DNA of 21,169 bases from a virus. The position numbers were made by a program, and so were the translations under genes. The notes below the pieces were generated by a model. The model was not told where the DNA came from. It made no database searches and saw nothing but the letters and a program-made list of their open reading frames with translations. The stretch lies in the IMG/VR virus record IMGVR_UViG_3300031841_001673, positions 1 to 21,169 of that record; one strand, given 5' to 3'. This document shows positions 16-9,815 of the stretch, in pieces; position 1 is the stretch's first letter; each line of letters opens with the position of its first letter.

Positions 16-405
16 ATGAAGAGTATGTCCGTTGCAATCAAAGAAAGCAATAAGATTACACCAAGAGCAAAGAAACTTGTGGATACACTCGTATCAACTG
101 GATGCACAATCACCGAAGCCTCCAAAGTAGCAGGATACAAAGGAAATTCATCCAGAGTAAGTGCAAGCCGTATGCTACGTAATCCAGAAGTACAGAAGTA
201 TATGTTTGAACAAATCACCCACAACTTAGGAATGAGTGCTGTCAAGGCTCAATCAAGGTTGCTTGATCTATGTACATCAGCTAAGAGTGAGTATGTACAA
301 CTAGAAGCTAGTAAGGATATACTTGACAGAGCAGGATTTAAAGCACCAGACAAACATCAGCATTTGGTCAAGGGTGATTTCAGTATTAATATAGACTTGA
401 AGTGA
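16..405 (+). CDS. Probable terminase small subunit-like DNA-binding protein
   Basis: This 129-residue protein resembles phage small terminase subunits, which recognise phage DNA and hand it to the large subunit. Residues 16-50 look like the usual N-terminal helix-turn-helix region: TPRAKKLVDTL, then the EASKVAGYKG turn and the RMLRNPEVQKYM helix. Such proteins typically carry an AA-x-x-AGYS signature followed by an L-x-NPKVQ helix. The C-terminal half has the EASKDILDRAGFKAPDK segment that often precedes the short tail in this family. The length fits the family. Two in-frame ATGs (16 and 25) are possible and neither has a clear Shine-Dalgarno; the window edge limits what can be seen upstream. 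It is separated from the large terminase by about 2.6 kb of small genes, which is unusual. It could instead be another HTH regulator. The call rests on motif resemblance only. Confidence 0.66.
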   Translation: MKSMSVAIKESNKITPRAKKLVDTLVSTGCTITEASKVAGYKGNSSRVSASRMLRNPEVQKYMFEQITHNLGMSAVKAQSRLLDLCTSAKSEYVQLEASKDILDRAGFKAPDKHQHLVKGDFSINIDLK

Positions 406-412
406 GATCACC

Positions 413-436
413 TGAATCATTGCTTTAGCTGATTCA
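413..436 (+). other. Hairpin 1 of non-coding region
   Basis: A perfect 7-bp stem joins TGAATCA (413-419) to TGATTCA (430-436). After a two-base bulge, a GC/GC pair (422-423 with 428-429) closes a TTTA loop. It begins 8 bases after the stop codon of the preceding gene. It has no following T-run, so it is not a standard intrinsic terminator. Confidence 0.55.
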
Positions 437-450
437 TATAAAGGGGATTT

Positions 451-470
451 TTTGGTATCGCTATACCAAA
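451..470 (+). other. Hairpin 2 of non-coding region
   Basis: A perfect 8-bp stem joins TTTGGTAT (451-458) to ATACCAAA (463-470) with a 4-base CGCT loop. It is preceded by a GGGGATTTT stretch and followed by C-rich sequence, not by T residues. As double-stranded DNA it is also a near-palindromic protein-binding candidate. Function is unknown. Confidence 0.6.
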
Positions 471-483
471 CCTGTAGCCGAAC

Positions 484-523
484 TTTTTCGGACACAGTCT
501 ATTAACAATAGGCGTCCGAAAAA
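484..523 (+). other. Long two-part hairpin 3 of non-coding region, with alternative pairing
   Basis: The outer stem is a perfect 10 bp, TTTTTCGGAC (484-493) with GTCCGAAAAA (514-523). After a 3-base bulge (494-496), an inner 7-bp helix (497-503 with 507-513, one G-T wobble) closes an AAC loop. It is the longest inverted repeat I find in the non-coding part of the window. The left arm can alternatively pair with CCGAA at 478-482 to make a smaller hairpin with a CTTT loop, so two mutually exclusive folds are possible. A second GTTCGG at 612-617 could also pair with CCGAAC at 478-483. The A-run on the right arm is not a terminator T-run. It could be an RNA control element or a DNA site for packaging or termination proteins. 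Confidence 0.6.
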
Positions 524-571
524 ACTGAGGCTGACATATACAGTAAGGGTTACTCAAACATTATAGTCGTT

Positions 572-603
572 CAAGGTTCGTTGCTTGTAATTTTTTTTTT
601 TTT
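572..603 (+). terminator. Weak candidate terminator: short stem plus 13-T run
   Basis: A run of 13 T residues (591-603) follows a short CAAG/CTTG stem (572-575 with 584-587) and three bases, GTAA minus its G. The T-run suits an intrinsic terminator for the 16-405 gene, but a 4-bp stem is weak. The homopolymer length may also be affected by sequencing or assembly error. Confidence 0.3.
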
Positions 604-666
604 CTGCTAAGGTTCGGTTATGACTACATACATAATTATTAATGTTTTGATCTGGATAATATTCTA

Positions 667-981
667 ATGCCTTCACCCGCTTGGACACGGAAAGCAGGAA
701 AGAATCCTAAAGGAGGATTGAATGCAAAGGGTCGTGCTTCTTATAAAGCACAAACGGGTGGTACATTAAAAGCACCTGTTAAGTCTGGAGATAATCCACG
801 AAGGGCATCTTTCTTAGCACGGATGGGTAATATGCCCGGACCTGAGAGAGATAGTAAAGGTAGACCTACTCGTTTACTTTTGTCATTAAAAGCGTGGGGT
901 GCCTCGAGCAAAGCAGATGCTCGTAAGAAAGCTAAAGCAATGTCAATCAGATTAAAGAATAAAAAAAAGAAAGGAAAATAA
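667..981 (+). CDS. DUF6321-like small basic phage protein
   Basis: The 104-residue product matches my memory of the DUF6321 family of phage-encoded proteins of unknown function. It has an N-terminal block SPAWTRKAGKNPKGGLNAKG (residues 3-22), then SYKAQTGGTLKAPV, an ARMGNMPGPE segment, and a basic C-terminus ending in a lysine run. Family members usually share the W-TRK-GKNP-GGLN-KGR and Q-GG-LK-PV signatures seen here. There is no signal peptide or membrane segment. The high charge suggests nucleic-acid contact or a DNA/virion role, but no function is established to my knowledge. It starts directly after the non-coding region with no strong Shine-Dalgarno. It is the first gene of a tightly packed run of basic small genes leading to the large terminase. 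Confidence 0.72.
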   Translation: MPSPAWTRKAGKNPKGGLNAKGRASYKAQTGGTLKAPVKSGDNPRRASFLARMGNMPGPERDSKGRPTRLLLSLKAWGASSKADARKKAKAMSIRLKNKKKKGK

Positions 982-2087: not shown

Positions 2088-2282
2088 ATGCCAAAAGAAA
2101 ACAAAGTTCTTGCACGTAATAAAAAACTTGCCGAAACTATGGTGCGTTCTGAAAAAGCAGACCTTGAATTACATAGACTAAAACAAATTAAAGAGTATGC
2201 AGAATACAAAGTAATGAAAGGTCATTCAAAAGAAGCTGCAATGAAAATGGCAAAAGCACATATTCTAAATAACAATGACTAG
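2088..2282 (+). CDS. Small helical basic protein, unknown function
   Basis: This 64-residue product is predicted by eye to be almost entirely helical and rich in Lys and Glu: LARNKKLAETMVRSEKADLE, then LKQIKEYAEYKVMKGHS, then AAMKMAKAHIL. I do not recognise the family. It starts 7 bases after the previous stop and its end overlaps the next gene by 8 bases (ATGACTAG), consistent with translational coupling. A small coiled or helical-hairpin adaptor is a reasonable structural guess; no function can be assigned. Confidence 0.6.
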   Translation: MPKENKVLARNKKLAETMVRSEKADLELHRLKQIKEYAEYKVMKGHSKEAAMKMAKAHILNNND

Positions 2283-2496
2283 AGATTATAAGAAGGAGTA
2301 TGAAAAATTTCAATCTTCTACTTCGTCAAAAAAAGATCGAGCAAAAAGAAATAAACTACGGAGACTTTATCTTAAACTAAAAAGAGTACAAAAAGGTGAT
2401 AAAAAAGATATAGATCATAAAGATGGCAATCCTCAAAATAACTCGCAAAAAAATATACAAGTAGTAAGTCAATCAAAAAATAGGGCAAAAAAATGA
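2275..2496 (+). CDS. Small HNH-type endonuclease-like protein
   Basis: The 73-residue protein ends with a recognisable HNH-like element: DIDHKDGNPQNNSQKNIQVV (residues 45-64), then SQSKNRAKK. In HNH enzymes the DH-x-DG-x-x-x-NN-x-x-x-NL-x-V pattern supplies the first metal/base histidine and the central Asn, with a final His or Asn on the closing helix. Here H48, the NN pair and N70 are the candidates. The first half is very basic (KKDRAKRNKLRRLYLKLKR), which suits DNA binding. Small HNH proteins beside phage terminases can assist DNA packaging or end formation, as shown for HK97 gp74. The last position being Asn rather than His is common in the family, but activity is unproven. The stop overlaps the next start (ATGA). 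Confidence 0.7.
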   Translation: MTRDYKKEYEKFQSSTSSKKDRAKRNKLRRLYLKLKRVQKGDKKDIDHKDGNPQNNSQKNIQVVSQSKNRAKK

Positions 2497-2891: not shown

Positions 2892-3082
2892 CAATATTTA
2901 CCAAATATAGTATTAGAGAAATAGACACACTACGAACTGTAGTTAAATCACAACATATGAAACATTATCCAAAAGAGATGGTAACTAACTATGAAGCTGA
3001 TAGAATAATAGAATCTCTATCAGAACAAGCTAGAGAAAAATTATATGAACTAGCAGTTAATTATGGCATCACTAAATTATAA
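2888..3082 (+). CDS. Small conserved protein immediately upstream of large terminase
   Basis: This 64-residue protein is less basic than its upstream neighbours and looks wholly alpha-helical. Its most distinctive part is LRTVVKSQHMKHYPKEMVTN followed by YEADRIIESL. I recall comparable short ORFs carrying a K-HYP-x-x-x-x-T-YEAD-x-I-x-S-L pattern just ahead of the terminase in other marine phages, always as hypotheticals. It overlaps the terminase ORF by 20 bases, so its translation should couple to TerL. This intimate position makes it a possible TerL partner or an alternative small terminase candidate. No enzymatic motif is visible. Confidence 0.65.
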   Translation: MTIFTKYSIREIDTLRTVVKSQHMKHYPKEMVTNYEADRIIESLSEQAREKLYELAVNYGITKL

Positions 3083-4568
3083 ACCTGATGGACAGGTATT
3101 AAAAAATTTTTTAAAAGATGATACTTTTTTTAGAGGAGTACGAGGACCAGTAGGTTCTGGTAAATCAGTAGCGTGTTGTATTGAAATAATAAAACGAGCT
3201 ATATCTCAAAAACCAAATGACGAGGGCATACGAAAAACACGTTGGGCAGTTATTCGTAATACTAATCCACAGCTTAAAACAACAACAATTAAGACGTGGT
3301 TGGATTGGTTTCCAGAGGAAGATTGGGGAAACTTTACGTGGAGTGTTCCTTACACACATAAATTAAAAAAAGGAGATATAGATTGTGAGGTAATCTTTTT
3401 GGCTCTTGATAGACCAGAAGATGTAAAAAAATTGCTATCTCTTGAATTGACGGGAGTGTGGATTAATGAGGCACGAGAAATTCCTAAAAGTATTGTTGAT
3501 GCTTGTTCTATGCGTGTGGGTCGTTTTCCTTCTATGCGTGATGGTGGTCCGACATGGTATGGTGTTGTTTGCGATACCAACCCACCAGATACAGATCATT
3601 GGTGGGCAATTATGGCAGGTGAAACTGTTATACCTGATTACATAAGTAAACAAGAAGCAAAGATGCTTATCAAACCAGATAATTGGAAATTTTTTAATCA
3701 ACCACCTGCTATGGAAGAAATTAAAGACAAGAACAATCAGGTGGTTGAATATAAAAAGTATAATCTATCTGAGAATAAAAACAATCTTACGGAAAACTAT
3801 TATAGTAATATTATAAGAGGTAAAACTAAATCGTGGATAGATGTATATGTTTTAAACAAACTAGGACAGGTAGAGGATGGTAAGCCTGTATATGAAGCAT
3901 TTAGACAGGATGTACACGTTGCAAAAGGTGAATTAGCAATAGCAGAAACATTACCAATCTATATGGGCATTGATTTTGGTTTAACACCTGCTTGTGTATT
4001 TGCACAAAAAATAAGAACAAGATGGATAATATTAGAAGAACTAGTTGCAGAAGATATGGGTATTGTAAAATTTTCTGATCTTATGAAACAATCTATGGCA
4101 AAATATTTACCAAGACCATTTCATATATTTGGAGATCCTGCAGGCGATCATAGAGTGCAAACAGATGAGAATACACCATTTCAAATACTTAGAGGCAAAG
4201 GTATAACTGCACGCCCTGCTCCAAGTAATGATGTGCTTATACGATTAGAAAGTGTAAATGCTACATTGACACGAATGGTAGATGGAGAATCAGGCATTTT
4301 AATAGATAAGAGTTGTATTAATTTAATACGAGGTTTTGCAGGTGGTTATCATTACAGAAGACTCCAAGTATCAGGGGAACGCTATGATGAGCGTCCAAAT
4401 AAGAATAGATTTTCACATATACATGATGCACTTCAATATTTATTATTAGGTGCAGGAGAAGGCAGATCGTTGACGATTGGAGGAAAATATAGTAAACCTA
4501 TAATAGCTAAACGTAATTTTGATGTTTTTAATGTTAAACCTAAAAACATCTATGAAAGAAGGAGGTAA
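3063..4568 (+). CDS. terL: Terminase large subunit (packaging ATPase and nuclease)
   Basis: The 501-residue protein is the DNA-packaging motor, which hydrolyses ATP at the portal and cuts the concatemer. The N-terminal ATPase domain has a Walker A at residues 28-35 (GPVGSGKS). A WAVIRNTNPQ strand follows at 61-70. The Walker B-like LTGVWINEAREI (129-140) has the catalytic Glu preceded by Asn rather than Asp. The CDTNPPDTDHWW segment (170-181) is typical of the coupling region. The C-terminal RNase H-like nuclease domain shows its three acidic positions: D303 in YMGIDFG, D358 in IFGDPAGDHR and D455 in HIHDALQYLL. Length is normal. There is no clear Shine-Dalgarno and the start overlaps the preceding ORF, so coupled translation is likely. 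In T7 the terminase lies at the end of the late genes; here it precedes the portal. Confidence 0.96.
   Translation: MASLNYKPDGQVLKNFLKDDTFFRGVRGPVGSGKSVACCIEIIKRAISQKPNDEGIRKTRWAVIRNTNPQLKTTTIKTWLDWFPEEDWGNFTWSVPYTHKLKKGDIDCEVIFLALDRPEDVKKLLSLELTGVWINEAREIPKSIVDACSMRVGRFPSMRDGGPTWYGVVCDTNPPDTDHWWAIMAGETVIPDYISKQEAKMLIKPDNWKFFNQPPAMEEIKDKNNQVVEYKKYNLSENKNNLTENYYSNIIRGKTKSWIDVYVLNKLGQVEDGKPVYEAFRQDVHVAKGELAIAETLPIYMGIDFGLTPACVFAQKIRTRWIILEELVAEDMGIVKFSDLMKQSMAKYLPRPFHIFGDPAGDHRVQTDENTPFQILRGKGITARPAPSNDVLIRLESVNATLTRMVDGESGILIDKSCINLIRGFAGGYHYRRLQVSGERYDERPNKNRFSHIHDALQYLLLGAGEGRSLTIGGKYSKPIIAKRNFDVFNVKPKNIYERRR
4559..4566 (+). promoter_or_regulatory. Near-consensus ribosome binding site overlapping terL end
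   Basis: AAGGAGGT lies 4 bases before the ATG at 4571, embedded in the last codons and stop of terL. It is the strongest Shine-Dalgarno I see in the window and suggests the small Gly/Pro-rich protein is made in quantity, independently of terL translation. Confidence 0.7.
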
Positions 4569-8912: not shown

Positions 8913-9161
8913 ATGGCTTTTACTCAAGCAAACTTAAAAAAGATTGCAGGTGGTGGAGATCAAAATGTTTATCTCTACAACTCTACAGATGCTATAAGTA
9001 CTATTATAGGATCTGGATATTTTAATAATGCTACCAATCAGCTTAAACAGAATGATGTAATCATAGCTGTTGGGTCAACTGGTGGCACAAGAACAGTAGA
9101 TGTCATTGTTGTATCAAGTGCAACAGCGGCGGCTACTGTAACAACTATTAATGGTACATAG
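8913..9161 (+). CDS. Small capsid-associated protein, possible decoration/cement
   Basis: The 82-residue product starts MAFTQANLKKIAGGG, then NVYLYNSTDAISTIIGSGYF and a beta-rich half (DVIIAVGST, TVDVIVVSSATAAATVTT). I have seen similar short beta proteins directly after podovirus capsid genes in marine phages, annotated hypothetical. AGGAGA at 8901-8906, overlapping the capsid stop, gives a 6-base spacer and implies high expression. Size, strand content and position suggest a head decoration or cement protein, but this is inference. It ends just before a strong hairpin. Confidence 0.75.
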   Translation: MAFTQANLKKIAGGGDQNVYLYNSTDAISTIIGSGYFNNATNQLKQNDVIIAVGSTGGTRTVDVIVVSSATAAATVTTINGT

Positions 9162-9162
9162 G

Positions 9163-9190
9163 ATATTGGGGGAGGCAACTCCCCCGATAT
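9163..9190 (+). terminator. Strong GNRA-loop hairpin after capsid genes, probable terminator
   Basis: A continuous 12-bp stem (ATATTGGGGGAG at 9163-9174 with CTCCCCCGATAT at 9179-9190, one G-T pair) is capped by the stable GCAA tetraloop. It is followed only by TTTAAATT, so the T-tract is short and termination may be partial. It lies 1 base after the 82-residue ORF stop and 7 bases before the tail-adaptor ATG. The position matches the T7 late terminator, which sits between the capsid and gp11 genes and lowers expression of the tail genes. It might instead be a processing or mRNA-stabilising hairpin. Confidence 0.75.
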
Positions 9191-9197
9191 TTAAATT

Positions 9198-9815
9198 ATG
9201 GTAAGTAAAATAGATATATGTAATCAAGGTTTAGTTTTAATAGGTGCAAATACTATTGCATCATTTACTGATAATACAGTTGAAAGTAAGGTGGCAAATC
9301 AATTATATGAAACAACACTAAGAGCATTACTTACAAAAGCAAGATGGCGATTTGCATCAAAACAACAACAACTTTCAAAACTTTCTACAGACCCTTTAGA
9401 TAAATGGGATTCAGCATATCAAATTCCTAATGATGCTATACTAATACATACAGTTACAGTATCAGATAATGTAATAGTTTTTGATAGATATGGAGAAGAA
9501 TTGTTTACAAACACAAGTTCAAGTGATGTAGTTATATGTCATTATACATATCAGCCACACGAAACAGAGTTTCCAGATTATTTTACACAATCGGTTGTGT
9601 TTGAACTTGCTAGTTTATTTGCAGGAGCAATAGCAAGGAACGATCAATTATCACTTCTATACGAAAAAAGAGCAAGACAACAATTAGTAGTTGCTCGAAG
9701 TATGGAATCACAAACACAAACAACTAGAAAACTAAATACAAGTTTATTAATAGAAGTTAGAAACAGAGGTACTGCAGATGGTATTAGAGCAGTTTTACCA
9801 AGTAGCAGTAGTTAA
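9198..9815 (+). CDS. Tail adaptor / tail tubular protein A (T7 gp11-type)
   Basis: The 205-residue protein (T7 gp11 is 196) forms the ring joining portal and nozzle. The opening SKIDICNQGLVLIGANTIAS (3-22) is the family hallmark, followed by a helix around LYETTLRALLTKARWRFA (37-54) and the WDSAYQIPNDAI segment (70-81). The end is helical (LYEKRARQQLVVARSM). The start follows a hairpin at 9163-9190 and has no free Shine-Dalgarno; the only GGAGG nearby is locked in the hairpin's left arm, too far away. Expression may therefore be lower than the capsid genes. The nozzle gene follows after 3 bases. Confidence 0.93.
   Translation: MVSKIDICNQGLVLIGANTIASFTDNTVESKVANQLYETTLRALLTKARWRFASKQQQLSKLSTDPLDKWDSAYQIPNDAILIHTVTVSDNVIVFDRYGEELFTNTSSSDVVICHYTYQPHETEFPDYFTQSVVFELASLFAGAIARNDQLSLLYEKRARQQLVVARSMESQTQTTRKLNTSLLIEVRNRGTADGIRAVLPSSSS

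Follow-up and report, generated by a model that had tools for sequence, protein, structure and literature searches.

A bipartite DNA motif downstream of terS as a probable packaging-initiation site in a marine phage terminase lineage

Introduction

What is the role of a long, bulged hairpin that lies just behind the small terminase subunit gene (terS) in the genome of a marine phage? The hairpin occupies positions 484-523 of the window analysed here, which is one viral contig of 21,169 bases taken over its full length. From the letters of this contig the hairpin had been proposed either to belong to an RNA switch with competing folds or to mark a DNA site for a packaging protein. We weighed these readings by comparing the region among relatives of the window, by scoring the conserved sequence around the hairpin, and by following its association with the genes on either side.

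Gene context of the intergenic region

The order of genes in the window is terS, an intergenic region, a gene for a DUF6321 protein, a series of small genes that includes one for an HNH protein, and terL (Table 1). Among named phages, Pelagibacter phage EXVC031P Hodr (OQ414635.1) is the nearest to the window, with a 74% match covering 75% of the window's first 7.5 kb, and Hodr was also the only close relative of the window TerS among 50,697 phage records, two other matches being partial and weak. The best relative of this TerS with a solved structure is the TerS of PaP3 (7joq, E 4e-4), while SF6/SPP1-type TerS matches weakly; relatives of the TerL include those of BcepC6B, Ss1, and Mx8. The gene for the small HNH protein was found in 11 of 44 relatives, all in the window's own subgroup, and is absent from Hodr; given this limited occurrence, we rejected the HNH neighbor as proof of cos packaging.

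Table 1. Features of the terminase region of the window and of the intergenic region downstream of terS.
Feature	Position	Strand	Notes
TerS, small terminase subunit	16..405	+	PF03592 Terminase_2, E 1.3e-8
Intergenic, terS to DUF6321 gene	406-666		
Bulged hairpin / inverted repeat	484..523	.	arms 484-493 and 514-523; inner helix 497-503/507-513; outer stem 476-479/529-532
Block A	511..524	+	GGCGTCCGAAAAAA; family consensus GGGGGYYNAAAAA; overlaps hairpin 3' arm; proposed cut region
Spacer	525..540	.	non-conserved, fixed length
Block B	541..580 (about)	+	CTCACNCATTATAG...TTCAAGGTTCG; core 553-580 CTCAAACATTATAGTCGTTCAAGGTTCG; proposed TerS-binding site
DUF6321 protein, next ordinary-size gene downstream of terS	667..981	+	differs among relatives
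HNH protein, small (PF13392), between terS and terL	2275-2496		
TerL, large terminase subunit	3063..4568	+	

Two further features were observed within the intergenic region. An ORF at 620-667 encodes a hydrophobic peptide of 15 residues (MTTYIIINVLIWIIF), and its stop codon and the start codon of the DUF6321 gene overlap (TAATG). It is kept with amino-acid changes in L085, L006, L090, L091, L094, and L114, is longer in L084, and is possibly a coupled micropeptide. A T13 tract at 591-603, on the 3' side of block B, is retained in the window's subgroup and absent in Hodr-type relatives.

Structure and strength of the hairpin

The fold described in the original prediction is present: perfect 10-bp arms (TTTTTCGGAC with GTCCGAAAAA) are joined to an inner helix with a 3-nt bulge, and an outer 4-bp stem lengthens the structure (Table 1). 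Folded alone, the hairpin reaches -16.2 kcal/mol as RNA (z -7.5) and -10.4 as DNA (z -7.0). A perfect 10-bp inverted repeat by itself is expected about once by chance in such a window (shuffle mean 0.93), and the notable part of the hairpin is the combination of this repeat with the inner helix, not the repeat alone. An intrinsic terminator was rejected because no T-run follows the stem; an A-run follows it, on both strands.

The hairpin had also been put forward as the most structured non-coding element of the window, a rank that belongs instead to a hairpin at 9155-9194 (GGATATTGGGGGAGGCAACTCCCCCGATATTTAAA), which is the stronger of the two (-23.1 vs -16.0 per 40 nt, and -24.2 in a 61-nt fold). 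The hairpin downstream of terS thus ranks second among the window's local structures. The one at 9155-9194 lies between an 82-aa ORF ending at 9161 and an ORF starting at 9198, and is likewise without a T-run.

A conserved bipartite motif includes the 3' arm of the hairpin

The 3' arm of the hairpin is part of a conserved bipartite DNA motif, within which it falls in block A. Unlike the hairpin, this motif is common to all 50 sequence groups that we compared, which were drawn from two protein scans. In every group block A has the same architecture, namely a G/C-run, 0-7 nt, and an A-run. From the last base of the A-run to the last base of block B there are 56 nt in the window and 55-59 nt (mode 57) in 50 of 50 clades, as located with block regexes drawn up by eye; L149 and L151 were outliers to the regexes, and their spacing of 57 was likewise read by eye. 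Information content is concentrated in the two blocks (0.67 bits in A and 0.60 in B, the spacer having 0.16 and the upstream sequence 0.06), and the spacer is variable and unstructured (mean z -0.04) despite its constant length.

Scanning for the motif with a short pattern gave mostly chance matches. A weight-matrix composite score over both blocks isolated a single site in the window (41, next best 7.6) and a single site in Hodr (46, next best 6.6), and each of nine genome-length contigs carries one clear site. The second match in G010, scoring 20, lies within coding sequence and is unlike the motif.

The hairpin is recurrent and dispensable

The hairpin itself is recurrent among relatives but not universal, since only 12 of the 50 groups have a z below -2 over their central 80-100 nt, the median is about 0, and block A is complementary to its upstream side in 3 of 50 groups compared with 4 of 50 for the downstream control. 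About half of the groups have no hairpin, and on this count we rejected it as a universal element. The compensatory changes that had been suggested as a check are found in part. In L090, the nearest variant, two double compensations preserve the lower stem (CGGAC/GTCCG in the window, AGAAC/GTTCT in L090), but this count was reached in 134 of 500 shuffles, and, as only two alignable variants contribute to it, it shows that pairing is kept between those two and nothing further. In L084, L091, L094, L097, and L114 and, more distantly, in L130 and L149, similar hairpins that end in the same A-run arise from unrelated sequences. We regard the hairpin as an optional addition around the presumed cut region and not as the core signal; its role is perhaps that of a dyad for a nuclease, or of an mRNA-end hairpin overlying the site.

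The stretch upstream of block A is subject to another kind of change. Five relatives (L117, L119, L126, L130, and L135) carry hypervariable, hairpin-rich insertions of up to several hundred bases between the terS stop codon and block A, and blocks A and B are still recognizable in all five.

Could the hairpin act in the messenger, as an RNase III processing site or as a stabilizing hairpin at the 3' end of the terS transcript? Hairpins of the T7 type that are processed by RNase III are long, bulged, and found in podovirus intergenic regions, and the window hairpin resembles them in each of these respects. Its stability as RNA, the compensatory changes in near relatives, and fold z values below -3 in several clades all fit such a role. 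However, the window hairpin differs from the T7-type hairpins in not being conserved, with about half of the clades having none, and the opposite strand and the DNA form are equally stable. We consider an mRNA feature of this kind unlikely, and it would be compatible with a packaging-site explanation of the DNA blocks.

The motif is tied to TerS

The motif lies directly downstream of one TerS family, and every TerS locus examined scores above threshold. A scan of all loci blindly hit 12 held-out contigs, which had been fetched by similarity to DUF6321, and in all 12 the match lies no more than about 100 nt after the stop codon of a TerS homolog, with genes downstream of the motif that differ among them. 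The held-out scan fixed the A-to-B spacing in advance, so that these 12 matches test presence and position and not spacing.

Sequence divergence points the same way. In the 43 distinct loci having both neighbors, the more TerS differs, the more block B does too (r 0.67 between the two distances; partial 0.63 with the adjacent downstream protein removed, permutation p < 0.0005), whereas block B and the adjacent downstream protein show a partial r of -0.11 once TerS is removed (95% interval of the difference 0.46-0.95). When TerS is split in two, the C-terminal half, which adjoins the motif, tracks block B at least as closely as the N-terminal half that carries the DNA-binding domain; with no concentration of the correlation in the latter, part of it could be due to linkage alone. 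Block A tracks TerS weakly (r about 0.18).

These patterns bear on the possibility that the site is a promoter or operator of the operon downstream of terS, with the start region in block B and an activator on block A about 60 nt upstream. The constant spacing of about 60 nt does recall activator-to-start distances, there is a single site per genome, and block B holds a TTATA-like core. On the other hand, positions 540-580 give no -10/-35 match and the spacer no recognizable -35, and the element stays with TerS where the downstream gene changes, block B tracking the former and not the latter. Judged by gene size, Hodr lacks, outside its structural block, any gene long enough for a T7-type RNA polymerase; this, together with the occurrence of block B once per genome, led us to reject a T7-like promoter reading of ACTCAC..TATAG. 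A promoter or operator in general appears quite doubtful.

A replication origin, or another initiator site adjoining terS by chance, would suit an element that is unique per genome and has A-rich and T-rich tracts, but the element strictly accompanies one TerS family through differing gene neighborhoods, and this makes such a role very improbable.

As to the competing folds, the complementary segments named in the original prediction, CCGAA (478-482) with TTCGG and CCGAAC with GTTCGG (478-483/612-617), exist in the window as written, but neither pairing is kept in the closest relatives. L083 has an identical hairpin with GTTCGG changed, L090 compensates the stem and has lost CCGAA..TTCGG, and CCGAAC is missing from every other hairpin type. 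Loss of pairing in relatives, which the original prediction had itself named as evidence against its proposal, is thus what we found for both alternative folds. GTTCGG serves the ATG at 620 as its ribosome-binding stretch, and relatives without CCGAAC have it too. With these losses, the lack of a hairpin in about half of the clades, the unstructured spacer, and no family match in an Rfam search, an attenuator or RNA switch is scarcely credible. A tRNA search found none.

A probable packaging-initiation site

Because the motif is asymmetric, unique, bipartite, fixed in spacing, and attached to TerS, we interpret the region just downstream of terS as the pac or cos site at which marine phages of an abundant terminase lineage begin to package their DNA, with a probability of roughly 0.6. 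The earlier suggestion of a DNA site for a packaging protein survives here in modified form: the 3' arm of the hairpin lies within the TerS-tied motif, and the hairpin itself is not the core. We hypothesize that a TerS ring would recognize block B via its helix-turn-helix domains and, once bound, would position TerL about 5.4 helical turns upstream. TerL might then cut for the first time at block A or close to it, after which packaging would proceed toward the structural genes.

The ends of assembled contigs offer a suggestive observation. Contig starts fall within 100 nt upstream of block B in 4 of 69 cases, compared with about 1.8 per 100 nt nearby, and are not at one base; L281, L303, L319, and L320 begin no farther than 60 nt from block B on its upstream side, and two of these contigs start at the A-run of block A or immediately after it. 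As proof of a cos cut these ends were rejected, the excess being not significant when all 69 distances are counted. Of the nine genome-length contigs, eight were assembled as circles whose opening lies away from the motif.

More generally, we would give about even odds to the proposal that an undescribed bipartite signal (G/C-run plus A-run, 57 nt, CTCACNCATTATTTTCTTCAAGGTTCG) defines the packaging start in a terminase lineage of marine phages that is widespread and almost uncultured, with a rapidly changing inverted repeat often around the cut block. To our knowledge, packaging sites are known for few phages. The signature of this motif would allow packaging starts and likely genome ends to be predicted in many uncultured marine phages, and the motif would provide a defined DNA target for how Terminase_2 TerS rings read sequence.

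Comparison with known packaging sites

A literature search on pelagiphage cos and pac sites found nothing relevant and no description of the bipartite motif, nor did it turn up a packaging site for this TerS family; Rfam gave no description of the motif either, and the intergenic region gave only chance-level DNA matches to named phages. Phage cos sites have separate cut (cosN) and terminase-binding (cosB) parts, as in lambda. The window site resembles the cos sites of lambda and PaP3 in adjoining the terminase genes, in occurring once per genome, and in being bipartite; it differs from them in the circular assemblies of its lineage. In PaP3, a cos phage, the cos DNA is bound specifically by the phage's own TerS (PMC7672466). 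The window TerS is a distant sequence relative of that protein, whereas the window site lies downstream of terS and differs in sequence from the PaP3 20-mer.

Among pac sites, that of P22 comprises 22 bp inside terS, and that of SPP1 has multiple contact points flanking the cut (PMC9611059). The window site is similarly close to terS and asymmetric, and its TerS matches the SF6/SPP1 type weakly; unlike these pac sites, it follows the terS stop codon and consists of two short blocks at a fixed spacing. The bipartite motif would, in these terms, be a new example of an already known kind of site, that of packaging initiation.
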